Source: a virus
IMG/VR virus record: IMGVR_UViG_3300009509_001471
Location: 1-22,565 of that record
DNA: 22,565 nucleotides
Strand: one strand, 5' to 3'
Shown here piece after piece: positions 1 to 17,431 of the stretch. Under the pieces are notes generated by a model. It did no database searches, was not told where the DNA came from, and saw only the letters and a list, made by a program, of their open reading frames with translations. A program made the position numbers and the translations under genes. How positions within the stretch are numbered: the first letter of the stretch is position 1; each line of letters begins with the position of its first letter.

Positions 1-1760
1 AACCCAGACATCATACTCGGATCCGTTTCCATCACGGCCACCGCGTCTGCAGTAGCATCCACCACCAATCCCAGCGTATCTGTCAGTACAGACCAAAGAA
101 TTCTCGTCTCAATGGCGCGTTTCCGATATCCGGTCACGCCAAGTATTATCCCGGATCCCGCCACTGCAATAGCATCGACAATAGACCCGGATGTAATACA
201 GACATCCATCACGTATGAACCATCATCCGCAACAGCGGTAACAAGCAGCACGGATCCAACCACCGTCCAGGAAAACATCACATACGAGCCGGATGCATCG
301 ACCGCGGTCGCCAGCACAACTGACCCAACCATACCGTTACAAGACCTGATCGTATCTCCTGATCCGGCATCCACAGTTGCCTCGACAACCAATCCAGCTG
401 TTGTTTATGGCTCCATCACATACGAGCCAGCAGAAGCCATATCTGTAAGCTCGACAAGCGACCCAACCGTGATACTGGAAGATATCACTGTCACGGCAAC
501 CGCATCCACGATAGCGTCCACAACTGATCCGGTAATAGTAAACAATGTGACAGTCACTGCAACCGCAAACACAGTGGCCAGCTCTACTAACCCGGTAGTG
601 GACAACAACATAGTATACGAGCCCAGTGCCGTGAACGCGGTGGCATCCACCGCCAATCCCGATGTTGTGCTCGGCAGCGTGACAGTATCAGCAACATCTT
701 ACACGGTAGCGTGTACAACTGACCCATCGGTACTAACTGGGGACATCATTGCAACCCCAGATCCTGCATCCACAATTGCTTCCACGACCAACCCGGATGT
801 AGTCCAAAGCTCAACAACCGCAACACCAGACCCGGCAACATCAATTGCGCAAACAACAAACCCGGATGTGGTACTCGAAAGCATCACATTAACGGACACA
901 GCCAGCGCAGTCACCTCCACAACAAACCCGTCAGTTGTAAATGACACGACTTATGAACCGGATCCAGCGACATCAGTAGCCAGCACAACCGATCCGAGCG
1001 TAATAAACAATGTAACTTATGAAGTCTCACCATCGAGCGCGATAGCCGCAACAACAAATCCTGATACCATTCAGGAAAGCATAAGTTACGAACCACAGGC
1101 CTGCAGCTCTGTAGCATCAAGTACAGCCCCCATAGTTATACTGGAAAGCCTGCAAATTTCGCCATCTCCAGCTTCTGCTATCGGAAGCACGACAGACCCA
1201 ACGGTAGCACTTGGCGATGTAATTGTTACAGCAGACCCAGCTTCCGCTATCGCAACCGGGACAGATCCATACGTAGCACTCGCATCCGTAACAGTCGAAC
1301 CGGATCCGGCAACTGCGATAACATCGAGCACAGCTCCAAGTGTGATACTTGGATCAATAACGTACGAACCAGCACCGGTCTCGTCGGTATCATCAACAAC
1401 CAACCCAACCGCCGTTATGGGGGATATCACGGTGGCTCCAACAGCCGCCACAGTCATAACAACGTCGACGGGGCCGGTGACTGTTCTTGAGAGCATCGTA
1501 TACGCTCCAAGCGCTTCCACGGCAATCGCTCAAACAACCAACCCAGATATCGTCCTGGGGAGCATAACATACGAACCGTCAGCCGCTTCCGGCATCGGAA
1601 GCACAACAGATCCTGTTGTAATAAACAATGCTACTTATAGTCCGCAAGCTGCAAGCTCCATCGCCCAGACCACAGACCCATCCGTGGTACTCGAGAGCCT
1701 GCAAATAGCACCACAGCTGGCATTCGCGCGCGCTTCCGCTGCAGCACCGACAGTTGTAAT
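1..1760 (+). repeat. Degenerate coding tandem repeats, about 63-69 bases per unit
   Basis: About 26 units of 21-23 codons are recognisable by a recurring S-T-T-[DN]-P core. The early units between 170 and 470 have an exact 23-residue spacing. DNA identity between units is low while the protein pattern is kept, so this is an old, diverged array rather than a recent expansion. One interruption near 70-140 replaces the normal linker with a segment reading V-S-M-A-R-F-R-Y-P. Confidence 0.85.
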
Positions 1761-2073
1761 ACTGCTGACGATCATCGGGGAGAGCGATGTCTCCATTGGA
1801 TCATGGACAGACGAACTTGATGGGACAACCAATATTTACCAGAGTATCGATGAGCTCCCACCTGGTGCAAACGATGACGACTATATAAAGAGCGACGAAG
1901 ACCCGTCGAGTGATATATATGTCATGATGATGGAAGACGCCCGCCGCAGACCCAAACACAGACGAATATCACATTGTCGAGTACAGATACAAGAGCGGAG
2001 GATCAGGGACAATAAACCTTACAGTAAGGCTCAAGCAAGGCACAACAACAATAGCCTCGTGGCAGCACAATAG
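1..2073 (+). CDS. Tandem-repeat fibre-like protein, 5' partial, frame broken near its C-terminus
   Basis: This reading frame is already open at base 1, and the residues before the first ATG (112) are the same repeats as those after it. The true start therefore lies left of the window and 112 is only an internal methionine. The protein is about 26 degenerate repeats of 21-23 residues with core A-S-T-T-[DN]-P-x-V-V-L-G-S-I-T-Y-E-P, rich in Thr, Ser, Ala, Val and Pro and almost free of Lys and Arg. No signal peptide or membrane segment is visible. From about 1775 a different domain begins (S-D-V-S-I-G-S-W-T, then N-I-Y-Q-S-I-D-E). It matches the N-terminal domain of the next gene until about 1940, where the frame turns into an Arg/His/Asn-rich tail ending at 2073. 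The homologous continuation is in the +1 frame and ends at 2182. The alternating strand-like pattern suggests an extended beta fibre; the function is not recognised. Confidence 0.75.
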   Translation, partial: NPDIILGSVSITATASAVASTTNPSVSVSTDQRILVSMARFRYPVTPSIIPDPATAIASTIDPDVIQTSITYEPSSATAVTSSTDPTTVQENITYEPDASTAVASTTDPTIPLQDLIVSPDPASTVASTTNPAVVYGSITYEPAEAISVSSTSDPTVILEDITVTATASTIASTTDPVIVNNVTVTATANTVASSTNPVVDNNIVYEPSAVNAVASTANPDVVLGSVTVSATSYTVACTTDPSVLTGDIIATPDPASTIASTTNPDVVQSSTTATPDPATSIAQTTNPDVVLESITLTDTASAVTSTTNPSVVNDTTYEPDPATSVASTTDPSVINNVTYEVSPSSAIAATTNPDTIQESISYEPQACSSVASSTAPIVILESLQISPSPASAIGSTTDPTVALGDVIVTADPASAIATGTDPYVALASVTVEPDPATAITSSTAPSVILGSITYEPAPVSSVSSTTNPTAVMGDITVAPTAATVITTSTGPVTVLESIVYAPSASTAIAQTTNPDIVLGSITYEPSAASGIGSTTDPVVINNATYSPQAASSIAQTTDPSVVLESLQIAPQLAFARASAAAPTVVILLTIIGESDVSIGSWTDELDGTTNIYQSIDELPPGANDDDYIKSDEDPSSDIYVMMMEDARRRPKHRRISHCRVQIQERRIRDNKPYSKAQARHNNNSLVAAQ

Positions 2074-2182
2074 CATTGGGCCATCATGGGTTGATGCTTA
2101 CCAGACTTTAACTTCACAAGAGGCAAACAGCATCACAGACTACACAGATCTCAGAATTGAGTTCGAGGCGGCGGTGCCATAA
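1931..2182 (+). other. Displaced +1-frame C-terminal end of the first repeat protein
   Basis: Read one base forward of the upstream frame, this stretch encodes a segment containing H-I-V-E-Y-R-Y, then L-T-V-R-L-K-Q-G-T-T, then Q-T-L-T-S-Q-E-A-N-S-I-T-D-Y and D-L-R-I-E-F. It ends in TAA at 2180-2182. The same order of motifs occurs in the N-terminal domain of the next protein (H-I-V-R-Y-T-Y, L-R-V-R-L-M-Q-G-T-T, Q-T-L-T-S-N-Q-A-D-A-I-T-N-Y, D-L-R-L-Q-F). The TGATGA at 1925-1930 closes this frame on the left, so the switch must fall after 1930. Removing one C from CCC at 1940-1942 gives an uninterrupted domain. The restored stop overlaps the next ATG (TAATG), as with most genes here. It could be a sequencing error, a real mutation or recoding. 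Confidence 0.8.
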
Positions 2183-4806
2183 TGGCTCAATACGGACGTC
2201 CCTCATCAGATATAAGCGTTGGCGGTTCAACCGGCTGGTACGAAAGCGCCGGGGGAACACAAACCAATATCTACACCGCCATCGACGAAGCAACCCGAGC
2301 AGATGGCGACTATATCTACTCATCAGCTAACCAGTTATCTACCTGCGAGATCGCGCTCTCGTCGGTAACCGACCCAGAGAGCTCAACAGGTCATATCGTA
2401 CGCTACACATACTTACGTACGATAACGAACAAGAATTACACCCTGCGCGTCCGCCTGATGCAGGGAACAACAGAAATTGCATACTGGGATCATGTAAACC
2501 CTTCAACATCCTTTACCCAGGCTGCTCAAACATTAACATCAAACCAGGCTGACGCAATCACAAATTATGGAGACCTGAGACTTCAGTTCAATGTCACCGT
2601 AGCCGGCGGTGGCGGCGGCATAATGCAAGTATCATGGGCAGAATTGGAAGTGCCGGATGCAACTGGTGGCCCTGTAACGGTAGAGCCATCTCCGGCAACA
2701 GTCATAGCCTCACGTACAAACCCAACAGTCGTACTAGGATCAATATCTTATACACCATCAGCCGCCAGCACGATAGCATCTACAACAAATCCTGTTCCCA
2801 TTTTGGGAACAATAACCTATACACCACAGCTATCCTATTCACTGGCATCATCCACAAACCCGGAAATTGTCCTGGGATCAGTATCCGTAACAGCAATTTC
2901 CTATGCAGTAGCAAGCGTCATAGTACCAGATGTAGTACTAGGCTCCATAACCATCACACCGGCAATATCCAGCGCCATCGCATCAACCACGGATCCAGAT
3001 GTATCGATACCATCCGGAGTGGAATATGAGCCCTCGCCAGCGACAACCATCGCTTCGTCAATAAACCCAGAGACGATCCAGGGTTCATTATCCATCACAG
3101 ACATAGCGTCTTCTGTATCATCTTCGACTGATCCAGATGTTGTCCTTGGCTCAATAGTTATTGAGCCAATATCCACAGTTATAGCATCATCTTCGAACCC
3201 GGAAATCGTCCTTGGGTCTATAACATACACACCACAGATCTTGACTTCTGTGGCGTCTGGTACAGACCCTAATGTAGATACCGGGGATTTAATAGTAAGC
3301 CCATCTCCGGCAAATGCCATTGCAAGCTCAACCAATCCAGACGTGACGCTAGGATCGTTGTCGATAGAGCCAACTTCCGCCAGCTCGGTAGCATCGACAA
3401 CAGATCCAAGCGTTGCAACAGGAGGTGGAATACGGGCTTTTGTGTCAATGGCGCGCATACGCCTGCCACTATCTTCAAACGTACTTCCGCAACCGGCTAC
3501 CACGATTGCTTCAACTACAGATCCAACAATAGTGCTTGGATCCGTAACGGTTGAACCAACACTATCATACACAATAGCGAGTACAACCAGTCCCGATATT
3601 GTACTCGGATCGATAACATACACACCGCAATTATCAAGCGCTGTAGCATCCACAACAGACCCGACCACCGTGATAGGGTCAATAGTATACGAGCCATCAC
3701 CAGCGACCTCGGTTGCATCCTCGGTTGACCCAGATACTATCTATGGATCTATCTCCATCACGGCAACAGCATCATCGGTTGCGTCAACAACCAACCCAAG
3801 TGTTCTTGTAGGATCGATAGCTGTAGAACCGAACCCTGCAACATCCATTGCGTCAACAACAGGCCCAGATGTCATACAGAGCTCAATTACGTACGAGCCA
3901 AACAGCGGATATGCAGTAGCCTCTACAACAGATCCCAGCGTGATATACGGATCGCTGACGATAGAAGTCTCACCGTCGAATGCGTTAGCATCAACAACCG
4001 ATCCGACTGTTGCCGTGAGCGATGCATATATCACTCCCGATCCGGCAACCGCAGTTGCAAAGACAACAGACCCAAGCGTAGAAATTGGCGCCGTCCTTGT
4101 ATCACCGACACCGTCATCCGCCATCGCAAGCACAACGGCCCCTGATATAGTACAGACATCTGTAACGGTTGAACCACAGCCATCCACATCGGTAGCCAGC
4201 GCCACCGACCCAGATGTTATATGTAGCACACTAATCCTACAGCCAAGCCCAGCAACTGCAGTTTCCGATACCGGAAGCCCGACCGTGGTACTTGGATCCA
4301 TCACCATCACGGCAACATCCAGCGCGATAGCATCGGCCACGGGCCCACAGGTCTTAATTGGATCAGTAGCCATAGAGCCATCCGCCGCAAGCGCAGTGAC
4401 ATCAGCAGTGGATCCAGAGACCGTCCAGGGATCAATAGTAATAGAGGACACAGCCTCGGTTGTCGCCAGCACGACTGACCCACAGATCATATACGGATCG
4501 GCCACAATCGAGCCAGCCGCCGCCACCGCAATAGCCAGCACAGAAATAGGTAATGTCCAATCATCGATATTTATACTGCCCGCTACAGCAGTTGCAAGAA
4601 CAAAGAACCCAAGAGTACCAGTAGACGAGATAGTCTACATAACCCTGCACATAACAAAGGACATAGAGTATGACCTGAGTATATGCAAGGACATCGAAGG
4701 CGATCTGCATATTACAAAAGACATCCAAATGTCGCTCTCAATAGACACATATAGAGAGTTTGAGATGACAATTACAAAAGATATAGACTTTGAGGTAGAA
4801 AGATGA
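2182..4806 (+). CDS. Second tandem-repeat fibre-like protein, 874 residues, complete
   Basis: The start at 2182 overlaps the TAA of the frame-restored upstream gene (TAATG), and the stop overlaps the next start (ATGA). There are three parts. Residues 1 to about 155 form a globular domain (S-D-I-S-V-G-G near the start, then N-I-Y-T-A-I-D-E, D-G-D-Y-I, V-R-Y-T-Y and D-L-R-L-Q-F). This domain is homologous to the C-terminus of the preceding protein and resembles a domain seen in many phage fibre-like proteins. Residues from about 160 to 810 hold about 28 units of the 21-23-residue A-S-T-T-[DN]-P-x-V-V-L-G-S-I repeat. The end, residues 822-871, is a run of charged 10-residue repeats. An internal V-S-M-A-R-I-R-L-P segment (from 3442) interrupts the array midway, matching the one in the first protein. 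It is probably an elongated virion or surface fibre; the exact role is unknown. Confidence 0.85.
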   Translation: MAQYGRPSSDISVGGSTGWYESAGGTQTNIYTAIDEATRADGDYIYSSANQLSTCEIALSSVTDPESSTGHIVRYTYLRTITNKNYTLRVRLMQGTTEIAYWDHVNPSTSFTQAAQTLTSNQADAITNYGDLRLQFNVTVAGGGGGIMQVSWAELEVPDATGGPVTVEPSPATVIASRTNPTVVLGSISYTPSAASTIASTTNPVPILGTITYTPQLSYSLASSTNPEIVLGSVSVTAISYAVASVIVPDVVLGSITITPAISSAIASTTDPDVSIPSGVEYEPSPATTIASSINPETIQGSLSITDIASSVSSSTDPDVVLGSIVIEPISTVIASSSNPEIVLGSITYTPQILTSVASGTDPNVDTGDLIVSPSPANAIASSTNPDVTLGSLSIEPTSASSVASTTDPSVATGGGIRAFVSMARIRLPLSSNVLPQPATTIASTTDPTIVLGSVTVEPTLSYTIASTTSPDIVLGSITYTPQLSSAVASTTDPTTVIGSIVYEPSPATSVASSVDPDTIYGSISITATASSVASTTNPSVLVGSIAVEPNPATSIASTTGPDVIQSSITYEPNSGYAVASTTDPSVIYGSLTIEVSPSNALASTTDPTVAVSDAYITPDPATAVAKTTDPSVEIGAVLVSPTPSSAIASTTAPDIVQTSVTVEPQPSTSVASATDPDVICSTLILQPSPATAVSDTGSPTVVLGSITITATSSAIASATGPQVLIGSVAIEPSAASAVTSAVDPETVQGSIVIEDTASVVASTTDPQIIYGSATIEPAAATAIASTEIGNVQSSIFILPATAVARTKNPRVPVDEIVYITLHITKDIEYDLSICKDIEGDLHITKDIQMSLSIDTYREFEMTITKDIDFEVER
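2670..4620 (+). repeat. Degenerate coding tandem repeats of the second repeat protein
   Basis: About 28 units of 21-23 codons share the repeat core of the first protein. The units are diverged from each other at both DNA and protein level. The array splits into about 11 units before and 17 after the interruption at roughly 3415-3480. Confidence 0.85.
4645..4794 (+). repeat. Five exact-length 10-residue repeats at the C-terminus
   Basis: Five consecutive decapeptides fit a pattern of hydrophobic-x-I-x-K-D-I-x-x-x: LHITKDIEYD, LSICKDIEGD, LHITKDIQMS, LSIDTYREFE and MTITKDIDFE. The period is 30 bases with no gaps, and the fourth unit is the most diverged. Alternating hydrophobic and charged residues suggest short beta strands. 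This differs completely in composition from the uncharged repeats before it. Confidence 0.85.
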
Positions 4807-5120
4807 CAGAAGAACTACACATAGGTGACGATGGTACGATCCTGGTATTCACTATACTCGAGGACAATGTGCCCGCACCAATATCAGACGCAACAACGAA
4901 AACGATAAAATTCGAAAAGCCAGACGGAACCACATTCAGCAAGACTGCAGACTTTCTCACGGATGGAAGCGACGGAAAATTGAAATACGTGACAGCAGAA
5001 GCAGACTTTGACACAGCCGGTGTATGGAGAGTACAGGCATTTGTAGAACTCTCTGACTGGTACGGGAACTCAAGCATAGCGACCTTGCGAGTTTACCCGA
5101 ATATTGTAATTACAATTTAG
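4803..5120 (+). CDS. Small Ig-like protein resembling the BppU N-terminal domain
   Basis: This 105-residue protein starts inside the stop of the upstream gene (ATGA at 4803-4806), so it is likely translated by coupling. The pattern I-G-D-x-G-T near the start, S-D-A-T-T-K-x-I-x-F-x-K-P-D-G-T, then D-G-x-D-G-K-L-K-Y and a late G-x-W-R-V-Q is typical of the small beta-sandwich domain at the N-terminus of phage upper baseplate proteins (BppU type). It is also common as a stand-alone phage protein. Family knowledge suggests a role in attaching fibres to the virion; whether it anchors the repeat proteins is inference. Its last codons lie within a perfect palindrome (5103-5116). Confidence 0.7.
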   Translation: MTEELHIGDDGTILVFTILEDNVPAPISDATTKTIKFEKPDGTTFSKTADFLTDGSDGKLKYVTAEADFDTAGVWRVQAFVELSDWYGNSSIATLRVYPNIVITI

Positions 5121-5244: not shown

Positions 5245-5928
5245 ATGAGCGAAGAAACGAATGTCCCTGCACAGCCGGAAGGAGCTACTGTAGATAATAC
5301 AACTAGCTCTACATCATCCTCTGCGCAGCAGACCACCGTGCCCGTGAACAACGAAGGCGTCACGGATTGGAAAAAACGCTACGATGGGCAACAGATCGCC
5401 CTTCAGAAGCTCTCACTAGAAAAACAGGATCTACAGAAACAGCTTGACGCAAAGATCTCGGAAGCCGAGCAGCTTGGCGCACAACTGTCGCTGAAAGATA
5501 CTGAGAAGACAGTGGCCGTCGGAGAGCGCGATAAGCAACTACAAGAAGCACTGGGAAAGATCCAGATGCTCGAGACCGAAAACAACGAACTGAAGGCACT
5601 TGCCTTGAAAGTTCAGATCGCTCGAGAGCTGAAGAAACCGGAGCTGATCGAGATCGCAGAAGCGTTTCCTAACCTGACAGACAAAGATATGCTAACCCAG
5701 GTAATGAAAGACATTGCCGGGTTCTCTGACAATCAGGTCAAAGCACGAGAAAGTCAGCTGCTGGCAGGAACCTTACCAACAATCGTACAAGGAGACGCAT
5801 CCCCAGCCATGCCTGCAACAGAACAGGAGTGGATGGATCGCATCAATTCGTTCGATTTTGGAACTCCCGAAAGACAAAAAGCCCTGGATCAATACGGTGA
5901 CTTCTTAAATAATAAGTATCAAACTTAA
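5245..5928 (+). CDS. Scaffold-like coiled-coil protein
   Basis: This 227-residue acidic protein is preceded by GGAGG at 5227-5231, 13 bases before the ATG, which is longer than ideal. Residues 1 to about 40 are a Ser/Thr/Gln-rich disordered leader. Residues about 42-130 are a Lys/Glu/Gln/Leu-rich coiled coil. The C-terminus is a small helical region ending N-N-K-Y-Q-T. Disordered N-terminus, central coiled coil and position directly before the major capsid gene fit a phage head scaffolding protein, which nucleates shell assembly and then leaves or is degraded. No protease motif is seen. The assignment rests on architecture and position, not on a recognised family. Confidence 0.7.
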   Translation: MSEETNVPAQPEGATVDNTTSSTSSSAQQTTVPVNNEGVTDWKKRYDGQQIALQKLSLEKQDLQKQLDAKISEAEQLGAQLSLKDTEKTVAVGERDKQLQEALGKIQMLETENNELKALALKVQIARELKKPELIEIAEAFPNLTDKDMLTQVMKDIAGFSDNQVKARESQLLAGTLPTIVQGDASPAMPATEQEWMDRINSFDFGTPERQKALDQYGDFLNNKYQT

Positions 5929-5942
5929 TTTAAGGAGTAACA

Positions 5943-7229
5943 ATGCCTAACGAGTATACAACCGGAATGCTTTGGTCGTCCACTCTTCCGAGCTGGCAGC
6001 GCGACTATTACGCTATGCTGCTTCTGGAGACCCTGCGCACCAAATCTATCCTGGTTCCCTACACTGTAACAAAAACCGACTATGCAGCGGCCAATTCAGG
6101 CACCATTATCTATACCGAAGTCTTTGACACCGAACCCGACTGGTCACCCCTGTCGGAGAGCGGTATCTGGCTGAGTGGTGCCCACCTTGACAGCCGCACT
6201 GTCAGCATCGCACTGGAAATCCACGGCGATATCCTGAAATTCTCGGACTACAACGAAGTAGTCCAATACGTCAACAAAGGCGATATGCGCGGTTTGGTAC
6301 GCGACAAGATCGGCCAGAACCAGAAGGACTATTTGGACATCCTGGCTCGCAACGCGTTCCTGCAGCACCCGTACATCAGCCGCTTTGTGAACGACGTCCT
6401 CGGCACCGGCTCCGGCTACGCCCGAACCGATCTGGACAGTCTGGATCTGTTCGACCCTGACATCGTTGAGACCATCCGTGTACACCTGGAAGAGAACGAA
6501 ATCCCCGGTGTTGTGGCTGTTGACGACAGCGACATCCCCACCATTGTGTGCGTAACCACGCCCCGTGTGATCAAAGACATCCGCACCGGCAACGCCTCGA
6601 AATGGCTAGAAGTCATCGAGTACGCCGGCTCTGGACGCAAGTTCACTGGCGAGGTCGGTATGTGGGGCGGTGTGCGTTTCGTGCGCACAAACCGCTTACG
6701 ACTGCGCAACCATGGTGCAGTGACAACCCAGACAACCCTGAACGGTGCAACAGTTGCCGGTCAAGGTTCTGCCGCCACCGTAGACACCGTCTACACCCCC
6801 GGCCAGTCAACCTCAACCCGCTACGTGACCGTGACAGACGAAACTGGTTTCGCAGTTGGTCAATATGTGACCATTCACGGAACCGGCAACGGCTCTGGGA
6901 ACCCCCCGCTGGAAAGCGACGGTACGCAAGAGACACGCCGCATCGTGTCCATCGACGCTGGCAACAACCGCCTGGCATTCGATAAGCCACTGTTGAAGCC
7001 CCATAGTGACGCAGACTATGTCACCAATGGTGTCGATGTCCATAGCTCCATCTTCATGGGTGGGCCTGGCGTGGTCTTTGGTATTGGCGAAGCACCGAAC
7101 GTGATCGTTCCCCCGAAATACGATGACCTGTTGATGGTCAATCGCTATGGATGGCGTGGCTTCCTGAAAATGCAACTCTTCCGCCCCGAGTACTTCGAGG
7201 TTGTAGAGAGCGCTGGTTCTACGGACTAA
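5943..7229 (+). CDS. Major capsid protein, N4-gp56 type
   Basis: The 428-residue protein has a strong ribosome site (AAGGAG 5932-5937, 5 bases before ATG). The opening with T-T-G-M-L-W, the helical W-Q-R-D-Y-Y-A-M-L-L-L-E-T-L-R segment, the D-I-L-K-F-S-D region and the late V-D-V-H followed by a G-G-P-G-V-V-F-G segment fit the N4-gp56 family of HK97-fold capsid proteins. Residues about 258-363 are a Thr/Gly/Val-rich beta insertion (Y-V-T-V-T-D, F-A-V-G-Q-Y-V-T-I, R-R-I-V-S-I-D, L-A-F-D-K-P-L), probably an added surface domain. Codons such as CTG, CGC, AAC and GGC dominate, unlike the ATA/AGA-rich repeat genes, as expected for the most abundant virion protein. The scaffold upstream and neck genes downstream support the call. 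Confidence 0.85.
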   Translation: MPNEYTTGMLWSSTLPSWQRDYYAMLLLETLRTKSILVPYTVTKTDYAAANSGTIIYTEVFDTEPDWSPLSESGIWLSGAHLDSRTVSIALEIHGDILKFSDYNEVVQYVNKGDMRGLVRDKIGQNQKDYLDILARNAFLQHPYISRFVNDVLGTGSGYARTDLDSLDLFDPDIVETIRVHLEENEIPGVVAVDDSDIPTIVCVTTPRVIKDIRTGNASKWLEVIEYAGSGRKFTGEVGMWGGVRFVRTNRLRLRNHGAVTTQTTLNGATVAGQGSAATVDTVYTPGQSTSTRYVTVTDETGFAVGQYVTIHGTGNGSGNPPLESDGTQETRRIVSIDAGNNRLAFDKPLLKPHSDADYVTNGVDVHSSIFMGGPGVVFGIGEAPNVIVPPKYDDLLMVNRYGWRGFLKMQLFRPEYFEVVESAGSTD

Positions 7230-7231
7230 AG

Positions 7232-7885
7232 ATGAGCACCTGGGGCGAACTTTTAGCTGATATTAGAGCTGACCTGAAGGACACCTCCACCACACAGAGG
7301 TGGCCCGATACGTCCCTCTACGTCTGGACAAAAGACGCTATACGCGACTATTCGGTACATTTTCCGATGAGCAAATCAGCAGCCGTGACAGTAAGCGATG
7401 GAAAGTATGCCCTCCCGGCAGACTGTGACCATGTCTTATACGTCACATGCCCAGACGACAACTATCTTGAGCAAAGAGATACACGCCCTGGTGTAGAGTA
7501 TCTGGCCGTATTCAAACCTACACTTTACCACATACGAGAGGGGTTCCTATATCTGAATGGGAGCCCCTCCACTGGTGAAGTCGTGACGGTTTTCTACGAG
7601 GCAAAGCATCCGGTTCCGACATCGGAACTTGACACAACATTTGACCTAACCATCCCTGAAGGAGACGAAGAGCTCCTCAGGCTTTACGTGAAAGCAAAGG
7701 CAACAGAGCAAATTAGGACAGCAACATCCAATCTGGATCGCTTCAGCCCTGGCTCAGGAAGGAGAGATGACAATCCTCTGGAGCCGGAAACTAACAATCT
7801 TATGATCGAGTACTATCGCAAAGTTGCGCAACGTTTTCCCGGTGGTGTTATTAGGCTATACAGACCTGGTGGGAGATACAGATAA
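7232..7885 (+). CDS. Head-tail adaptor-like neck protein
   Basis: I chose the ATG at 7232, two bases after the capsid stop, over the in-frame ATG at 7151. The earlier start would overlap the capsid gene by 79 bases and add an atypical Arg/Pro/Cys-containing leader. The resulting protein has 217 residues and begins M-S-T-W-G-E-L-L-A-D-I-R-A-D-L-K-D, a helical opening typical of phage adaptor proteins that bind the portal. It then has a beta-rich middle (Y-A-L-P-A-D-C-D-H, E-V-V-T-V-F-Y-E-A) and a long helix near residue 150 (P-E-G-D-E-E-L-L-R-L-Y-V-K-A-K-A-T-E). No clear ribosome site precedes it, so coupling to capsid translation is likely. The role is inferred from position and fold pattern. 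Confidence 0.6.
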   Translation: MSTWGELLADIRADLKDTSTTQRWPDTSLYVWTKDAIRDYSVHFPMSKSAAVTVSDGKYALPADCDHVLYVTCPDDNYLEQRDTRPGVEYLAVFKPTLYHIREGFLYLNGSPSTGEVVTVFYEAKHPVPTSELDTTFDLTIPEGDEELLRLYVKAKATEQIRTATSNLDRFSPGSGRRDDNPLEPETNNLMIEYYRKVAQRFPGGVIRLYRPGGRYR

Positions 7886-8469
7886 TGTTCCCTAGCACAT
7901 CTTATCTGGATCTCCAGTCAATCCACGCATCAATAATAGATCGGGTTCAGGAGGCTCTAGACGAGGCCCTGATAAACAATCTGTACACTGGCGATCCAGC
8001 GAGAGCTGGGGTCGTCAAACAGGGGTCATTGCAGGGCGACCCCGACCCTGACGTTGCAAGGATAAGCGTCAATGTCTACGAGAATGATCCCGACAGGTTC
8101 TTTGGCTCAGATAACACCTCCGCGTTCGGTAATACCGAATGGGAAGACGAAGTCGATCACATCGAGATTGGCGGCGCCATCACATGGAAGCGCCGTTTCA
8201 CTGTCAAGTCCAGATGCCTATTGGTTAATTCGCAAGAGGCAACAGAAAATGCCCAAAAAGTGGCACGCGCTGTAAGAACACGGATAGAAGAAACCATATT
8301 AGGCGTAGACTGGACAGGTATCGAGACAGATGACGAGTACGTCTCCAGAGGAGCCTTTGCAGAAACGATGAAGGGTGAAATGGTGCAAGCCGGAGGCCCA
8401 CCAGATAGCTACGACTTCTACATCAAAGTCCGCTTTGAGGTATTAACTACGAGGAGTATTACACTATGA
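7885..8469 (+). CDS. Tail-completion/terminator-like neck protein
   Basis: The 194-residue protein starts within the preceding stop (TAATG) and its own stop overlaps the tail tube start (ATGA). It opens with a helix (residues about 10-35, including I-I-D-R-V-Q-E-A-L-D-E-A-L). Strands then alternate with acidic loops, a helix lies near 125-145 (A-T-E-N-A-Q-K-V-A-R-A-V-R-T-R-I-E), and it ends on strands (F-Y-I-K-V-R-F-E-V). This alpha/beta pattern and position directly before the tail tube fit a tail terminator or completion protein that caps the tube and joins it to the head. No specific family was identified by motif. Confidence 0.5.
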   Translation: MFPSTSYLDLQSIHASIIDRVQEALDEALINNLYTGDPARAGVVKQGSLQGDPDPDVARISVNVYENDPDRFFGSDNTSAFGNTEWEDEVDHIEIGGAITWKRRFTVKSRCLLVNSQEATENAQKVARAVRTRIEETILGVDWTGIETDDEYVSRGAFAETMKGEMVQAGGPPDSYDFYIKVRFEVLTTRSITL

Positions 8470-8981
8470 CCGCTTCTGAACGATCATATATAGGTTTTGC
8501 CAAGCAAACTGCTAAAGGCACTATAAACAGCACGGACGCCGACTTCACTTACCTTCTAATTCTAGAAGGCGGGGTTGGCCCCAATAACCAGGTGCTTCCA
8601 CTCGACCAAGAGATCGGTGGCGGCGCTCTGCCGAGAGACGTTGTCAGGACTGGTGTTGTCACAACGGGTGCGATGAACTTCATCCCGCGCCCCTCCAGCA
8701 TCGCCGCACTACTGACCGGCGCCATCGGACACTGTATCAGGTACAGGCCCATCCTATACCCACACAATCACGCACAATACGGATCAGTTCTCCGTACCCT
8801 ATTACACCTGGCGTTCACAACCAGGTGGGCTATGGGGCGAGACATTCCAGGACGTGCGTGTGCAGAGCCTATCACTTGCGTTCCGAGCAGGCGACTACCT
8901 GCGTGGTCAGGTCTCGTTGCTGGGTGGCACACCCACCCCCAATGTAACCACAACCACCTGGACACCAGCAACGTACGTTGA
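8466..8981 (+). CDS. Tail tube protein, N-terminal part (frame breaks near 8727)
   Basis: GAGGAG at 8451-8456 lies 9 bases before the ATG, which also overlaps the previous stop. The first 87 codons look authentic: G-F-A-K-Q-T-A-K-G-T, a P-L-D-Q-E-I-G-G-G segment, then G-A-M-N-F-I-P-R-P and I-A-A-L-L-T-G-A-I-G. This resembles the N-terminus of phage tail tube proteins. After about 8727 the frame turns into a Cys/His/Arg-rich sequence unlike a virion protein and ends at 8981. The proper continuation lies one base forward (8728-9489). Residues after about 87 are therefore probably not part of the main product. Confidence 0.75.
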   Translation: MTASERSYIGFAKQTAKGTINSTDADFTYLLILEGGVGPNNQVLPLDQEIGGGALPRDVVRTGVVTTGAMNFIPRPSSIAALLTGAIGHCIRYRPILYPHNHAQYGSVLRTLLHLAFTTRWAMGRDIPGRACAEPITCVPSRRLPAWSGLVAGWHTHPQCNHNHLDTSNVR

Positions 8982-9489
8982 CGGTGGCCCACAGTTCATC
9001 GCAACCGAACAGCAAGTACAGGTTCCAACCGCCACAAATATCAAAGTGTTGCGCGGTTCCTTCACGGCAGTCAACCAGATCCCTCTGGATGAGCAATGGA
9101 TCGTCGGTTCTTACGCACCTGACGACTTTGAGATCAACCAGAAAGCATACACCATCAACCTGGTATGCAAGATCGCGGACGCCACCCTATACAACAAAAT
9201 GCTTTACGATCCCGCGAACGGCAGCGCATGGGTCGCAGACCTCTTCCGCGAGGCTGATATTCTGCTAAAGTTCGAAAGTCCGAAAGAAGCCGACACTGGC
9301 ATTCCGTTCAGTATCGATATCAACGGAAATGGAAACTCAGGAGCCACAGCTAACATCGTGTGGTCTGCAGAGCCTATTGCACTGCGCGCCGGACGCCAGG
9401 TTTTACTGGCCGTCACGGGTGTTGTACTCGCAAGCTCCACAGAGCCACTGTCAGTTGTAGTTGTAAACACTGATAGCTCTGCTAACTAA
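8728..9489 (+). CDS. Tail tube protein, main C-terminal part in the +1 frame
   Basis: This frame is closed upstream by TGA at 8713-8715 and continues the tube protein from about 8716-8728. It includes Y-T-H-T-I-T-H-N-T-D-Q-F, Y-Y-T-W-R-S-Q-P-G-G-L-W-G-E-T-F-Q-D and then S-L-A-F-R-A-G-D-Y-L-R-G-Q-V, a pattern typical of long tail tube proteins. Dropping one G of GG at 8727-8728 joins the halves into a single protein of about 340 residues. The ATG at 8854 would remove this conserved middle, so it is unlikely to be a true start, and no ribosome site stands out there. The C-terminus (V-L-L-A-V-T-G-V-V-L-A-S-S-T) could be a small Ig-like or exposed strand pair. The tube forms the DNA channel of the tail. 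Confidence 0.8.
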   Translation, partial: DTVSGTGPSYTHTITHNTDQFSVPYYTWRSQPGGLWGETFQDVRVQSLSLAFRAGDYLRGQVSLLGGTPTPNVTTTTWTPATYVDGGPQFIATEQQVQVPTATNIKVLRGSFTAVNQIPLDEQWIVGSYAPDDFEINQKAYTINLVCKIADATLYNKMLYDPANGSAWVADLFREADILLKFESPKEADTGIPFSIDINGNGNSGATANIVWSAEPIALRAGRQVLLAVTGVVLASSTEPLSVVVVNTDSSAN

Positions 9490-10256: not shown

Positions 10257-13200
10257 ATGGCTAGGGATCCGCTTGTAGACGATATCATTGCAGGTTTCCG
10301 CGACTATTCCAAAGGCGGAATTTATCTGCCTGAACAACTCCAAAACGAAGTCGCCAGAGTTCTAGGGGAGCTTTATCAGGAACACTATGAAGCCTCAGCT
10401 ATCACGGATGCAGAAGGCAAAACTGAAAGCATATACTCCTGGCTAAAAAGCTCACGCGGTCTTTCCGCCGTATCTGAAATCGCAGGAACCGACGTAACCG
10501 GGATGTTAAAGCAACTTCCCGGACTTAACGTTTCCAGCGATCCAGGCAACGTGCCAAACTGGATAGCTAGATCGGTCGGTGTACCAAAGAGCGGAAGACT
10601 AGAAGATAGTCCATTCTACAATCCATCAGTAGGGACATTTGAATATCAGGGGCAACAAAGAATTCCAATACCACAAGAGATCAGAGCTGGATACTGGAAC
10701 AAAACCAGGCAAGGACTGCTATCGTTCCAAAATGCTCAGACTGGATCAGACCTCACCCGGCTTCTGCTAGAAAGCTCGCGTGGAATTATCGCGCAATCCG
10801 CAGCATTCGGGGTACGCGAGAGAGGGCTTGATCCGACAGAAGCCCTGACAAGGTCATCCCTTAACCTATCATACAGGATGGCAACCTTCTCACCGACATA
10901 CCAGCAGGGCACCCAGACAAAACAAAGTTCATGGCCAATGTGGGCAGCATTTGGTGGCCGCCAAACAAACACAGACATGATCCAGGAAGCCACCGAGAGG
11001 AAAAGGCTCAACATTGTAAGCCTTGATGCACTCGGTGGAGAAGGAACATACTATGCTGGCCAGAACATCCAGGTCGAACAGCTCTCATACATAGACAGAC
11101 AAACCAACAAATGGGTTTTCCCATCCCTGCTGACAACAACGGGAAGACTGCACACACAGGGCGGAACACAGTTTGCGAACGTCGTATTCGATCCATTCGG
11201 ACAGGGCAAAAAGGGATACAAGCCGCTCGAGCTGAGTGCAAGAGACGTCCGCAGCATCGGCTACTATGTCAGCCATGGCAACGTTGATGTTTTCGCAAGG
11301 GAAGGACGCGCTCCCGGCAGAACAAGCAACCTTGATAAAGTCCTCCAATACATGCAAGCGGAAATCCCAGAATGGACAGAGCGCCGGCACGCACTGACAG
11401 ACGAAGCTGAAAGCGAGATAGAATTCAACTATCGGGGTGGTGGCGGCAGGGGGGACTTCACACAAGAAGAAGCCAACATAGCGTATCTCCAGAGAAGGCT
11501 CGACGAGCGCAATGCAAGAGTACGCCGTGAAGGTATCACGACATGGGAAGACCCGCAAGGAAACCCTATCACTGGCGACATCCTCAATGCACCAGACCCA
11601 AGAGCCAGGACAACCTTTGTCACCACCGGTGGACGAGAAATCTACGAAGACCCATTTGGGGATACTGGATATGATGCTTCTCTGCGCGTAAACTATGGAT
11701 ACAAGCAAAAAGGTGGACGCTGGATAGCCAGGTGGGGTGCCGGGAAGGGCCCGGCCAATCCAATGGAAGCATTTGAACAAGGAAAAGTTACCCACGGATT
11801 GGTTTTCAGATCACAGGACAGAGACCTGATCAGAAGCCTGGAAAAAGGCGAAGAGCTGACGTTAAGGGGACACGACCTGGCAATAACAGGGACAGTCAGC
11901 GGGAGAGCAGTATTCGGAGAAGACATCAGCGATGAGAGGCTTGAAAAAATCTCCAAAGCAACCGGGATAGCACCAGGTTATATAAGAGAACAACTCAAGA
12001 GATCAGGTGAAGGCATCGCATATAGATTTAACCCAGAACTCGTTGAGCCAATCGACGAGGATGTGATGAACATGACGCCTGCAGAATATGCTGAGTTCAG
12101 CAGGCAGAAGAAACTTGAGGCAGCAGAGGCACTCGCATCAGCATCTGACACTCCCGGCTCAATTGCGGCGAAAAACATCCTGGCCAGCCGAGAGGGCAAA
12201 CCAGGACAATTTAGAGACGAATATGAACAGATAGATCCACAGATGGCCGCCATGGAAAGAGCCATGTACGCAAAACTCAGGCCTGGTGTACCGGTACAGG
12301 GATCCAGAGGAATTCCGAACATGCCAAGCGAACCACCATTCGAACCGACAGAAGCCGACATGGCATGGCTCCGAGAACAAGAAGCGGCAGGAGCGGCGCC
12401 AACTCACGTTGATCCAAGAAGATTGTATAAAAGACCAAGCGAACTTCTATACAAACACACAAAGGGCATCGCGAAATACGCACCAACAGAAGCCACACAA
12501 CCACCACTTCCCGGCATGAATGTTCCGGCATCGGAAGCAATATCAAGGAACCCATTATCATACGAGAGCTGGGTATCCGGAGAGGCCTCAAGAGTTCTTT
12601 ACAAGGGAGAACGACTGCGAGACGTTGTTGGCAACCTGAGCAAACCAGACCAGTCCAACATAGTAAGTTTTATCAGATCGCAGAGACATGCTGATAGGGT
12701 AAACGAAGCGCTTGATGCAGCGTACAGAGCAGATAGAATTGAAGCAGCAGGCGGCGATCCTGGAAGGGTAACACCAAGAAGGAGCGAAGCCGACGTATCC
12801 CGCGCAATGAGGGACTATGCAGACACACCTCTAGCCGGAACCGGCGATGCAGGAAACCAGCCACCACAAGAACCACCCACTCCGCCAGCACCACCCGCCC
12901 CACCACCGGATGACGAAGGTAGACGCAGAAGCAATCCGCCAGAACTAGGCGATACAAGCGGATCGTTCATATACAATGGACAGGAGTGGATAAACCAGGA
13001 AGCCGAACCAGAAGAAGTGGAGCGTATAAAAACTCTGATGCGGCGCAGGAGATCGGGGGTGACATTCCAGGAGCTCGCAAACGAAGCACCCCAGCCATCG
13101 CAGTATGCAGAGAGCATGGTTCCCAGCCAGGCAGAGGGCGGGAGATCGTGGCAGTCCATAACAGATGAACAGTTCAGGAAATTTGTCGCCACTGGTGCAT

Positions 13201-16200
13201 CAAGAGCAGACCCAACATGGTTAGCCGGAAAGTACCAGGACAAACCTCCACACTCACTGCTCGGTACACCACATGTTGCCAAGAAAGACGAACTGGGAGG
13301 GATAGAGGAACTAGAATTCGTCGAGCCAAACTCGATAGTAAGAGGACGGCACCAGTTCACGGAAAGAGAGGACTACTGGGGCAGGCGTTTCAAGATCTTG
13401 AGCCCAGAGCAGGAAGGCCTGACAACAAAGACAAGCTCAGCAGTCATAGGACAGGCCTATCACTTATTCCAGTCAAGCCTTGGTTCCGCCTTGATGGGTG
13501 CAGACACCTCACAGGGTGGACAGAACGCAATAGCAAACCTGCGTGCCTCGATAGACAAGTATGCCAATGACTATGTAAAACAAATGATCAAGGACGCCGG
13601 CACAGACCCAGAGGCGATCCGCCAGGCATCTGAAACCGGCGACAAGATCAAGACCCTTGTAAGGGAATTCACTGACGAAACTCTCGATCAAGCAGTGAGA
13701 GAGGGCAAAAGCGAAAAATTCGGAGATCTGGACTGGCGTGGCATACAGTCCACAAGACTGTATAAAGGATCAGATATCCGCCGCCTGGCACAAGCTTATC
13801 CAGAATTCGGTGACTGGGTAGAAGAACAGGGCGGTGTCTCAGCAGTCCTCAAAGGAAGACCACAAACATTCACCACGTTAAAAGGTAGAAACCTGACTGT
13901 TGGAATGGGTGGATGGGATGACACCGGTGGAGACTTTGGCGGGCCAGGCGGTGGTGGGCCACCTGGACGCGGGCCAACCGGAAGAGGAGGTCTTTGGGGC
14001 GGCAGAATGGGCTCGCTGCTCTATGGTGCATACGTAGGTAAACGCCTGTGGAGCTGGACAGCAGGAGCATCCATACAAGAGGCCGAAGCATACGGACAAT
14101 ACGTGTCGTCAATGGCACCATCCATTGGTGGTATTGCCGCCATGCAACCAACCGGTTACGAGGCAAGACAACAACTCGGCAGAATGTGGATGGCAGAAGG
14201 GGCGTACGAGCAATTCGGTGGCTTCTCAACAGGTCTATACTCCCTTAGCGGTGGGAGCACATTCGTACCGAGAACAGCTGCAGGCTTAAAACTCGCTGGT
14301 GGTCTTGCAGCTGGTGGATACACGACTGCTGTTGGTGCCAGCGTAATGGCACAAATGGGAGGCGGTGGTGCCACAATGGCAGCAGGAGGAGCTGCCGCTG
14401 GCGCAGGAATGATAGCACTTGGCGCCGGAGCCGTAGCATCCCTGGCAGGGATGGAAGTGTACAACGCATTTTTCAAGCCAGAAGGCATGCAGAACATGAC
14501 CTTTGGCAACATTTTCCAGAACTTCCTCACAGAGTACCAGTACAATCTCGCCAAGACTAAATACGGTATCGAGAACCCACTCGAGGCCATAAAAAGCAAG
14601 CTCCCCGTTTTTGGAACACAAGCAGCCGCGAAACAACTCATGGAACAGGACTATCTAAGCCGTGAAGCTTACTATAGTTTTGTAGCCGCCAGAGCGCCTA
14701 TTAACCAGGAGTTAGAACAGTTAAAGGAAACAACATCAATCGTTTCCGCTATCACGGGATCGAAGCCAGAAGAGATCCAGCCATTTGTAAGGAACATTTC
14801 TCGCATCACGGGTGGAATGGATCAGCCTATGTTCGAGCAAATGGCAATGGCAGCCCAGGGAATGGGGATGACATTTGGGGAATATTCCCAGATGTTCGCA
14901 TCCACAATATCCACCATGGGGATAAGATCCGGAACCGATCAAGCAAGATATGTGGCACAGCAATTCGCCGGATTTCAGGGCTTCGAGGAAGCAGAGGCAT
15001 TCGCCGCCAAGCAATCGGTATATGCAAGATATGGTGCAATGCTATCGCCATATTCCTCAAGCTCAGCAGAAGCAACAAGACTGGCAAGAACCTATGGTAT
15101 AGAAACCATGGCCCAGGCTCAAGGGCTCACATCCTTAGCCGCCGTAGCGAACATGTATGGTATGGATCTAGCTGAAGTTGTATCCACCTCAACAATGCAT
15201 GAACGCGATGGAAGAACTGTAACAGCAAGGCGTACAGTTGGTGACGAACTTGCTGAAATGTCAGCAAGGCTTGGGCCAGTAAGATCTATGGTTGCTGGAC
15301 AAGCTGCCGACTTTCTAACTGGATACGGCGTTCCGATACAGGAAGCTCTTGGGTTTGTGGAGCAATACGGAGTTCAAGACAGGCGCCAGTGGGGACGTGC
15401 ACAAACCATGATCCAGATGGCAGGCCAATATACAAATGACCTGTCACAAGAGGCTATGGGCAGGCTTGCCGAAGCCGGCATGAAACTCACGGAGTATCAG
15501 ACCGGACAAATAGGAAGTATATTACAGAGAGTTGCTCCAGGAACATCTGGGGATAACCTAGCACAGCTCGCGGAGATACTAGCATCATCCGGAATGTCCA
15601 ATGCGGACATGTTCCGCCTGAACAATATGATGTCAGGCGACATCAAGGCCTGGTCATACGATGCATTCCAACGTGGCACTTACCAGGGTCGCTTTACAGA
15701 CATGGCAGGTCGCCCCATCTACATGTCATCCCTGAACGACTTTATGCAGATGAGCAACGCCCAGTTCAACGCCGGCAACCCGTACGCAAGAGCAGGGTAC
15801 GACACATACGGCTTCCTGGGCATGCAGAGTGTCGGAGACACACAGGCAGCACAGGCCTGGATGGAAGGCGGACAACTGGGCCGTGAAATGTTGCACCGCC
15901 AGCGCATGAGGGGCTACGATGTCATGCGCATGGATCTAGCCCAGGAACAGCTCACTTCCGATATCGGATACACCCAGCAGATGTGGGGTCTCCAGGATCA
16001 GCAAAGAGCCCTATCGCACCAGTCACAACTCGCGAGCTTTGGAGCCGCATGGAGACGGCTTGATGTGAACCAGGCCTACGGACTGGCACAAGAAGACTTG
16101 TCCTTCCGCCAGATGATGGCCCGCCACCAATACGGAGACATCACAGCCGGTATCAACCTGCGCAGACTTGACCTGCGGGAATACTTCGGCGAGAGACAAG

Positions 16201-17060
16201 CCGATCTATCACGGCAAGGTTTTGAGAGCCGTCAGGCATGGCAAATGTACAGTATGCAGTTCGGCAGGGAAAATGCCCTGCTGCAACGCCAATGGACACA
16301 GGCCGACTGGCAATACTCCGACCAGATGCGCGGTCTCCAGTTTGGCTGGGGCATGGAGGATATCAACGAGCAGATCAGGCGTTCAACCGGATACCAGAGA
16401 CGCCAGCTGATCAAGCAACGCGAGCGCATGGTGCTCACACAGAACCTTGAAGAAGGCCACATCGACGAACAGCGCGAGCGCCAGGAAGAGATGTGGGCCC
16501 GCGAGGATGAGCACTACGAGAAACTGAAGACATATACCGAGCAGCAGATGGCGCTCGAGAAAGAACAGTTCGAGCTCAACGAAGACCAGCGCAAACAGTT
16601 AATGGAGCTTGACCGCGAGGCATTCGAGGCGCAAGAGAAATATCGCCAGGAAATGCAGGCGTTCGAGAAGGAACAGTTCGAACTGAGCAAGCAACAGCGC
16701 CAAGCACTTTACGAGCTAGAACGCGAAGAACTTGCCCGCAGGCAAGAAGAGTACATGCGCCAGTATGCCCTGCAGGAGCAGATCATCAACCTGCAACGCC
16801 AGCACCAGCAGGAACAATGGGACTTCCAGCAGCGTTCGCTCGACATCAACCGCATGATCGCAGACGAGAACTGGAAATACCAAATGGAACTGGCAAACGT
16901 TTCTAATTTGTACAGTGCAATTGTAGGCCACTTCCAGATGATGTCTGCTTACGATCCAACATTCCAGCTCAGCCAACTGGTGGGCTTTATCCAGCAGATC
17001 AACAGCCTTGATCCATACAGGTTAATGCTGCTCAGCAACATAATGGCGACAATGAGATGA
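10257..17060 (+). CDS. Tail tape measure protein, 2267 residues
   Basis: This is the longest gene in the window. It lies directly after the frameshifted chaperones, and AAGG at 10247-10250 serves the ATG. Residues 1 to about 1215 are a hydrophilic region without recognised motifs, with a Pro-rich linker at about 867-890 (P-P-T-P-P-A-P-P-A-P-P-P). A Gly-rich linker lies at about 1217-1250. A hydrophobic Ala/Gly block at about 1340-1405 (G-A-G-M-I-A-L-G-A-G-A-V-A-S-L-A-G) is typical of tape measures and could help DNA cross the membrane. Helical Met/Gln-rich sequence follows, then a long Gln/Glu/Arg-rich coiled coil at about 1880-2210. The family sets tail length at roughly 0.15 nm per residue, so the full protein would imply about 340 nm if all of it acts as ruler. 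The stop overlaps the next start (ATGA). Confidence 0.9.
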   Translation: MARDPLVDDIIAGFRDYSKGGIYLPEQLQNEVARVLGELYQEHYEASAITDAEGKTESIYSWLKSSRGLSAVSEIAGTDVTGMLKQLPGLNVSSDPGNVPNWIARSVGVPKSGRLEDSPFYNPSVGTFEYQGQQRIPIPQEIRAGYWNKTRQGLLSFQNAQTGSDLTRLLLESSRGIIAQSAAFGVRERGLDPTEALTRSSLNLSYRMATFSPTYQQGTQTKQSSWPMWAAFGGRQTNTDMIQEATERKRLNIVSLDALGGEGTYYAGQNIQVEQLSYIDRQTNKWVFPSLLTTTGRLHTQGGTQFANVVFDPFGQGKKGYKPLELSARDVRSIGYYVSHGNVDVFAREGRAPGRTSNLDKVLQYMQAEIPEWTERRHALTDEAESEIEFNYRGGGGRGDFTQEEANIAYLQRRLDERNARVRREGITTWEDPQGNPITGDILNAPDPRARTTFVTTGGREIYEDPFGDTGYDASLRVNYGYKQKGGRWIARWGAGKGPANPMEAFEQGKVTHGLVFRSQDRDLIRSLEKGEELTLRGHDLAITGTVSGRAVFGEDISDERLEKISKATGIAPGYIREQLKRSGEGIAYRFNPELVEPIDEDVMNMTPAEYAEFSRQKKLEAAEALASASDTPGSIAAKNILASREGKPGQFRDEYEQIDPQMAAMERAMYAKLRPGVPVQGSRGIPNMPSEPPFEPTEADMAWLREQEAAGAAPTHVDPRRLYKRPSELLYKHTKGIAKYAPTEATQPPLPGMNVPASEAISRNPLSYESWVSGEASRVLYKGERLRDVVGNLSKPDQSNIVSFIRSQRHADRVNEALDAAYRADRIEAAGGDPGRVTPRRSEADVSRAMRDYADTPLAGTGDAGNQPPQEPPTPPAPPAPPPDDEGRRRSNPPELGDTSGSFIYNGQEWINQEAEPEEVERIKTLMRRRRSGVTFQELANEAPQPSQYAESMVPSQAEGGRSWQSITDEQFRKFVATGASRADPTWLAGKYQDKPPHSLLGTPHVAKKDELGGIEELEFVEPNSIVRGRHQFTEREDYWGRRFKILSPEQEGLTTKTSSAVIGQAYHLFQSSLGSALMGADTSQGGQNAIANLRASIDKYANDYVKQMIKDAGTDPEAIRQASETGDKIKTLVREFTDETLDQAVREGKSEKFGDLDWRGIQSTRLYKGSDIRRLAQAYPEFGDWVEEQGGVSAVLKGRPQTFTTLKGRNLTVGMGGWDDTGGDFGGPGGGGPPGRGPTGRGGLWGGRMGSLLYGAYVGKRLWSWTAGASIQEAEAYGQYVSSMAPSIGGIAAMQPTGYEARQQLGRMWMAEGAYEQFGGFSTGLYSLSGGSTFVPRTAAGLKLAGGLAAGGYTTAVGASVMAQMGGGGATMAAGGAAAGAGMIALGAGAVASLAGMEVYNAFFKPEGMQNMTFGNIFQNFLTEYQYNLAKTKYGIENPLEAIKSKLPVFGTQAAAKQLMEQDYLSREAYYSFVAARAPINQELEQLKETTSIVSAITGSKPEEIQPFVRNISRITGGMDQPMFEQMAMAAQGMGMTFGEYSQMFASTISTMGIRSGTDQARYVAQQFAGFQGFEEAEAFAAKQSVYARYGAMLSPYSSSSAEATRLARTYGIETMAQAQGLTSLAAVANMYGMDLAEVVSTSTMHERDGRTVTARRTVGDELAEMSARLGPVRSMVAGQAADFLTGYGVPIQEALGFVEQYGVQDRRQWGRAQTMIQMAGQYTNDLSQEAMGRLAEAGMKLTEYQTGQIGSILQRVAPGTSGDNLAQLAEILASSGMSNADMFRLNNMMSGDIKAWSYDAFQRGTYQGRFTDMAGRPIYMSSLNDFMQMSNAQFNAGNPYARAGYDTYGFLGMQSVGDTQAAQAWMEGGQLGREMLHRQRMRGYDVMRMDLAQEQLTSDIGYTQQMWGLQDQQRALSHQSQLASFGAAWRRLDVNQAYGLAQEDLSFRQMMARHQYGDITAGINLRRLDLREYFGERQADLSRQGFESRQAWQMYSMQFGRENALLQRQWTQADWQYSDQMRGLQFGWGMEDINEQIRRSTGYQRRQLIKQRERMVLTQNLEEGHIDEQRERQEEMWAREDEHYEKLKTYTEQQMALEKEQFELNEDQRKQLMELDREAFEAQEKYRQEMQAFEKEQFELSKQQRQALYELEREELARRQEEYMRQYALQEQIINLQRQHQQEQWDFQQRSLDINRMIADENWKYQMELANVSNLYSAIVGHFQMMSAYDPTFQLSQLVGFIQQINSLDPYRLMLLSNIMATMR
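16557..16772 (+). repeat. Tandem 108-base (36-residue) coiled-coil repeat in the tape measure gene
   Basis: Two adjacent 36-codon units begin E-K-E-Q-F-E-L at 16557 and 16665 and share Q-R-[KQ]-[QA]-L near residue 13 and a [DE]-R-E core. The third base often differs between units, so the duplication is not recent. A unit of 36 residues does not fit an integral number of heptads, but it is close to whole helical turns. Confidence 0.7.
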
Positions 17061-17431
17061 ACGACTATATACAGCTAAATTCGAAATACTATCCAACATC
17101 GGCAAAAGCGTGGGAACCGTCCATCCAGAAACCGAGCACGTTCCGCCTGCTTCTCAATGGGAACACCGATACCACCTACGGCGCCGCCAACCTGGCAATG
17201 TGGGAAGGGGAGATCGTGGTGAAACAGGGCGAAAGCCGCACCAACTACGGGACACCATCCGACCTGGAAAGCGCGCTTAACACAAAAGGCAACATAACAT
17301 TTGTCGACCATTACGGAACTTCATACAACGTCGCAGTCCAAAGCTGGCGCAGGAGATCGCTAAGTCCAAAATGGGACGGCTCAACAAACCGCCACCATTA
17401 CATAGTACAGCTAAAAGGTAAATCGGCATGA
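17057..17431 (+). CDS. Small tail protein between tape measure and hub
   Basis: The 124-residue protein starts in the tape measure stop and its stop overlaps the next start (both ATGA). It is Trp/Tyr-rich with several likely beta strands. It contains G-E-I-V-V-K-Q-G-E-S, a late F-V-D-H-Y-G-T-S-Y-N-V-A-V and L-S-P-K-W-D-G-S-T-N, and ends with Y-I-V-Q-L-K-G. Small beta proteins in this position often serve as distal tail or hub accessory proteins; the length is short for a full Dit protein. I do not recognise the family with certainty. Confidence 0.5.
   Translation: MNDYIQLNSKYYPTSAKAWEPSIQKPSTFRLLLNGNTDTTYGAANLAMWEGEIVVKQGESRTNYGTPSDLESALNTKGNITFVDHYGTSYNVAVQSWRRRSLSPKWDGSTNRHHYIVQLKGKSA

Follow-up and report, generated by a model that had tools for sequence, protein, structure and literature searches.

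What are the two giant repeat genes that directly precede the capsid genes in the IMG/VR virus record IMGVR_UViG_3300009509_001471, and to which part of the virion would their products be attached? The window, by which we mean the whole stretch analysed here (22,565 nucleotides), is a linear 22.6-kb record that is probably a fragment; from left to right it carries gene 1, whose frame is already open where the contig begins, followed by gene 2, a gene for a ~105-residue protein, a scaffold-like protein and the major capsid protein (MCP). Genes 1 and 2 are adjacent, and each comprises about 25 copies of a 22–23-residue repeat with a further domain at one end. A sequence-only reading of the window had taken the products for fibre-sized proteins, a description that our analysis supports, and had offered two roles: head fibres, from their place before the scaffold gene, or a second adhesion system. 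We think it fairly probable that genes 1 and 2 encode exchangeable glycan-adhesion fibres with an end domain resembling carbohydrate-binding modules (CBMs) and a BppU_N-type adaptor, which together form a mobile cassette, and that these fibres are attached to the tail rather than to the head.

The repeat unit has the consensus A-S-T-T-[DN]-P-x-V-V-L-G-S-I-T-Y-E-P-x-P-A-[TS]-A-[VI]. When both proteins are searched with a profile of 20 units, gene 1 yields 27 domains and gene 2 yields 28; a score of 8 bits is exceeded by 49 of them, compared with a single one in 400 shuffled copies of the two proteins. The autocorrelation has maxima at 23 and 46 residues (z of 11–19). Counted by hand, 48 units are complete: 33 have 23 residues, 13 have 22, and single units have 21 and 24. 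About six more are partial or degenerate, and the total agrees with the earlier estimate of about 54 copies in the two genes. Also borne out are the closely kept length (21–24 residues) and the two prolines per unit: Pro6 never varies, and 31 of the 33 units of 23 residues have Pro17. The earlier description of the repeat as almost free of charge does not hold, since 97 of the 1,103 residues of the three arrays are acidic and 3 are basic. Each unit has about two D/E and almost no K/R, the array is thus acidic, and the acidic residues lie mainly at unit positions 5, 7, 16 and 18.

Identity between units averages 43% in protein and 49% in DNA (pairwise), and the difference at fourfold sites under identical residues is 0.62, against a saturation value of 0.675. 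As silent sites are nearly saturated, the copies are old and kept by selection on the protein, and are not products of recent slippage. No significant match to the repeat was found in Pfam or NCBIfam, in keeping with the earlier statement that it has no named family; exact peptide patterns found nothing in IMG/VR and tblastn (low-complexity filter on) found nothing in GenBank phages, the alignment of units being too variable to serve as a search query. Two PHROG families match the array weakly and in part, phrog_8501 (E = 5e-5, several gene 2 stretches) and phrog_21181 (best stretch 752–786). The first is labelled ‘minor tail protein’ and the second has no function label.

Gene 1 has the order array–domain and gene 2 the order domain–array. 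The contig starts inside gene 1, whose N-terminus is therefore missing; the end of an earlier repeat stretch of about 1.5 units (1–78, plus strand, as for all parts of genes 1 and 2; frame open at the contig start) is followed by a linker (VSVSTDQRILVSMARFRYPVTPSIIPDPATAI; 79–171) that interrupts the array, by 23 units of 21–23 residues (172–1731) and by a C-terminal CBM-like domain. Gene 2 begins with its CBM-like domain (~160 non-repeat residues; 2182–2670) and continues with array A (ten units and one partial; 2668–3390), a second linker (ATGGGIRAFVSMARIRLPLSSNVLPQPATTI; 3415–3507), array B (15 units; 3508–4533) and a charged C-terminal tail of ~12-residue repeats that is recognised by sequence (..LHITKDIEYDLSICKDIE..; 4621–4803). 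Similar tails can be read in L036, L037 and L039 (L numbers denote loci compared with the window) and in Microcystis phage Mae-JY22. The linkers of both genes share the motif ..VSMAR[FI]R[YL]P..S..LPxPATxI. Each linker contains an in-frame ATG (window positions 112, MARFR, and 3448, MARIR), with AGGAGGT about 21 bases upstream of the one at 3448; these ATGs may be internal translation starts or traces of old gene fusions.

The sequence-only reading had compared the repeat to a β-solenoid, and structure prediction points the same way. AlphaFold2 was given seven consecutive units of gene 2 (the start of array B, 3508–3987) and five other seven-unit blocks, all from this phage. As a monomer, the seven natural, diverged units are modelled as a solenoid with 23 residues and three short strands per coil [predicted local distance difference test (pLDDT) 87, predicted template modelling score (pTM) 0.83]. 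The model superimposes on the right-handed β-helices of Awp1 (7o9q), PL3 (4yzq), HxuA (4i84) and FHA (1rwr) with root mean square deviations (r.m.s.d.) of 2.7–3.6 Å over 121–150 residues (Z = 9.7–10.9), compared with about 10 Å for the LpxA type, and is thus right-handed. Matches of the LpxA/GlmU and curli types from Foldseek and VIA (r.m.s.d. 9–10 Å) were set aside. Every proline lies within or beside a predicted turn, as do the acidic positions 5, 7, 16 and 18. The array is predicted to be a right-handed β-helix with one coil per unit, and each fibre would be a stiff rod of about 25 stacked 22–23-residue coils, about 12 nm long by arithmetic on an assumed rise of 4.8 Å per coil. Right-handed parallel β-helices such as pectate lyases, phage tailspikes, FHA and Awp1 share the 22–23-residue coil, the three strands and the handedness of this prediction; unlike them, the window proteins have an explicit sequence repeat and prolines in two turns of every coil, and no sequence similarity to them was found. 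In BFVD, proteins of unassigned function from Caulobacter phage Seuss and an uncultured Caudovirales phage match the array with probability 1.00 and E of about 0.04; the sole match at E < 1e-3, an open reading frame of white spot syndrome virus with 16% identity, was taken as a fold coincidence.

For the end domain, AlphaFold2 gives a confident β-sandwich (pLDDT 93, pTM 0.89). Foldseek matches it to CBM16, CBM8, CBM61 and CBM4 (probability 1.00, E of about 1e-4) and VIA-align superimposes it on 2zew (Z = 11.4, r.m.s.d. 3.2 Å over 129 residues), so that the predicted fold is that of a CBM16/CBM4-like β-sandwich. At one end of the rod such a domain would bind surface polysaccharide, and the CBM-like domain is on these grounds a putative glycan-binding module. 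Alignment searches with the domain (57 aligned sequences) reached 79 IMG/VR loci, of which 65 are distinct by sequence; this number is a lower bound. It has no family match in Pfam or PHROG and no match at E = 1e-3 in 50,697 GenBank phage records, and in the PDB neither gene 2 nor the domain nor the adaptor has a sequence relative at E below 0.1.

Gene 2 is followed by a gene for a BppU_N-type attachment/adaptor protein of ~105 residues (4803–5120, plus strand; Pfam PF10651, E = 7e-10), which scores 39.2 bits against a gathering cut-off of 23.1. Its alignment has 13 members, with relatives in 12 other loci, and in L008, L034, L036 and L039 the adaptor follows 22-residue fibres of unrelated repeat sequence. 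Fibres with the domain and an array are followed in L048, L049 and L101 by another protein, Gp77, the fibre–tail adaptor of podophage GP4 (E = 5e-14 to 8e-27). In TP901-1 and Douge, a ring of BppU N-terminal domains holds the adhesins on the distal tail protein (PMC10747895, PMC13033339). Since both adaptor families, BppU_N here and Gp77 in relatives, are known for tail attachment, the tail is favoured, and the BppU_N-type protein would attach the gene 2 fibre to the virion, most likely at a ring on the tail. The BppU systems of lactococcal phage TP901-1 and mycobacteriophage Douge likewise combine a ~100-residue BppU_N attachment-ring domain with carbohydrate-binding modules (PMC13033339, PMC10747895). 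They differ in architecture: in known BppU proteins a single chain unites this domain with a helical or CBM C-terminus, whereas in the window BppU_N is a small protein of its own, encoded after giant repeat fibres that are likewise separate. The fibres of podophage GP4 (Gp77, PF23148, PDB 8jou) resemble those of the window in that a small adaptor gene lies shortly downstream of the fibre gene, and Gp77 itself follows fibres that carry the window's CBM-like domain; the window adaptor, however, is of the BppU_N type, has no Pfam match to Gp77 and shows no profile relation to it (hhalign probability of 0.1 between the adaptor profiles).

The cassette recurs in other phages with its repeat exchanged. 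In 22 of the 65 distinct loci a protein with 20–24-residue repeats of another sequence lies within 1.5 kb of the domain. Repeat proteins of any period account for 45 of the 194 proteins within this distance, for 12 of 223 beyond it and for 1 of 147 in loci related through the MCP. By inspection, this single case is that of L008, the closest MCP relative (72%), in which the same slot holds a different 22-residue repeat fibre and an adaptor at 35% identity. The plan of genes 1 and 2, array–domain followed by domain–array, recurs in L046 and L075, and in L049 with the first domain truncated, although the unit sequences are wholly different [S.TPD...L.V.RALA in L046, IENS.HAHTAD..LTQ in L075 and TANVGAATVAGLT in L049]. 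Among the systems closest to the window is L046 (IMGVR 3300035158_001279): its 22-residue units carry the S.TPD...L motif, it has the two-gene plan and its domain core is 82% identical over 67 residues, yet its fibre genes lie after minor tail genes in a record with no match to the window's MCP family. That family was not found in ten records with related fibres, L046 included, by a search that had no positive control. From the shared core and the missing MCP match, the module seems to have travelled from phage to phage. Fibre and adaptor would then be a mobile module of the late region; in related phages, the same slot or another place holds fibres of this plan with quite different 20–24-residue repeats.

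Repeat proteins of other kinds were also seen. The uncultured phage L075 and Microcystis phage Mae-JY22 have HAH-type proteins with the same 22-residue repeat length, and L075 combines this with the two-gene plan (array–domain, then domain–array) and with LamG-like segments; these proteins differ in being histidine-rich and in their unit sequence. In Mae-JY22 (L125, 744–1421), a cultured cyanophage and the nearest cultured phage found to have such an array, the 225-residue protein of 22-residue HAH repeats ends in ~11-residue ETRAL repeats, and a Gp77 gene lies three genes downstream. Among 669 distinct proteins of L008–L124, 71 are clearly repetitive, with mostly even periods: 14 (eight), 16 (nine), 18 (three), 20 (eleven), 22 (fifteen) and 24 (three), compared with 21 (three) and 23 (four).

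Several points weigh against the favoured explanation. Most phage fibres are trimeric, sugar binding does not follow from a CBM-like fold, and the genes sit in a head-gene slot where relatives carry other proteins of unassigned role. Two of five AlphaFold2 models of the array are poor (47 and 31), and Foldseek finds no match of the array in the PDB at E < 1e-3. AlphaFold2 is also documented to model perfect repeats, with high confidence, as solenoids that are unrealistic (PMC11795689). The last of these points, and the trimeric nature of most phage fibres, lend weight to an alternative which concerns the fold of the shaft and is compatible with an adhesion role: the shaft would be an intertwined homotrimer, either triple β-spiral-like or a triple-stranded β-helix, and the monomeric solenoid an artefact of prediction. 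The mostly even periods in these loci (14, 16, 18, 20, 22 and 24), which no single solenoid type explains, fit this alternative as well. The units of the window are diverged, however, whereas the bias is supposed to affect near-perfect repeats above all, and this divergence, with prolines and charges in or beside the predicted turns, argues against an artefact, though not so strongly as to exclude one. The triple β-spiral shaft of the adenovirus/reovirus type is a trimer of ~15-residue repeats, compared with the period of 22–23 in the window. We regard a trimeric shaft as rather unlikely, though it is the alternative to be taken most seriously.

The position of the genes speaks for a second alternative, in which both proteins are head fibres that project from the capsid or the portal vertex and the BppU_N-like protein is an Ig-like adaptor anchoring them to the capsid. 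The genes directly precede scaffold and MCP; in L106 portal and scaffold/MCP flank a fibre with domain and array; and relatives of the MCP have the order terminase, portal, phosphoesterase, variable slot, scaffold and MCP (portal and terminase being named from order and sequence, not by family search), with varied short β-rich proteins in the slot that could be capsid decorations. In L010, L015, L016 and L021 the slot holds short proteins without a named family; in L011 the slot before the scaffold (7340–8248) holds a GH25 muramidase. Against head fibres, L101 has the same cassette between terminase and portal, and L046 has it behind minor tail genes, so that gene position says little about the site of attachment, and both neighbouring adaptor families are tail-attachment proteins where their role is known (PMC13033339, PMC10747895; Gp77). 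Neither genes 1 and 2 nor the slot proteins of relatives match a described head-fibre family of the phi29 gp8.5 type in Pfam, PHROG or NCBIfam. The proposal of head fibres is weakened accordingly and seems to us unlikely, and a second adhesion system, the other role first suggested, is favoured by the CBM-like domain and by another fibre-like gene in the window (20595–22565).

The CBM-like domain is intact at the start of gene 2 and broken in gene 1. Its first part (1774–1945, frame 1) has 44% identity to the gene 2 domain and the rest (1955–2182, frame 2) 45–46%; the frameshift lies somewhere in about 1920–1955, inside the C-terminal domain. Beyond about 1945 the original frame is nonsense up to a stop at 2073, whereas the frame 2 continuation stops at 2180–2182, where its TAA overlaps the ATG of gene 2 (TAATG). 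To judge from these frames, the natural end of gene 1 is not at 2073, and the C-terminal domain runs on in the other frame. Indels in the contig are the likeliest cause, as a second gene, that of the tail tube (8466–9489), is also split by a frameshift (at about 8720–8740) and is a single open frame in five relatives (L009, L010, L014, L015 and L021). That gene 1 is instead a degenerate, unexpressed remnant of a duplicated fibre gene with a real frameshift, for which the break itself and the truncated domain of the matching first gene in L049 could be cited, is improbable given this second break, the conservation of both halves of the domain and the selection on the array.

The right border of the cassette is the gene for the scaffold-like protein (5245–5928, plus strand), which has a weak PHROG scaffold match and precedes the MCP in relatives too. 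The MCP (5943–7229, plus strand; phrog_1357, E = 6e-10) is related to those of 19 IMG/VR loci. To its right lie a head–tail adaptor (SU10_adaptor), the tail-tube pieces, a 2267-residue protein taken as the tape measure (10257–17060) and further large proteins, of which those encoded at 17057–20598 are read as tail-tip proteins; the presumed tape measure has an 18-residue periodicity (z of 7–8). The last gene (20595–22565), open at the contig end, has no family match but reads to us like a classical tail fibre (..YDIGSSTLIWRKAYISE..), so that genes 1 and 2 would be a second fibre system. Scans of genome contigs with the adaptor and with the CBM-like domain found nothing, and hence no host is assigned.

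In kind the system is ordinary, a phage adhesin, yet the variant has no name in the family libraries searched. More tentatively, it may represent an undescribed and widespread class of adhesins with a sequence-agnostic solenoid shaft, in which the repeat sequence is wholly replaced and only coil length (mostly 20–24 residues) and end modules persist, the CBM-like tips are mobile and adaptors of the BppU_N or Gp77 type are interchangeable. The unnamed CBM-like domain and the small adaptor genes provide an anchor by which a common kind of fibre can be recognised in uncultured phages, and a location ahead of the capsid genes is not in itself a sign of a head fibre. Should coil length indeed be kept while sequence is swapped, these shafts would offer a natural test of which features make a solenoid, as well as of the ways in which adhesion modules pass between unrelated phage lineages.

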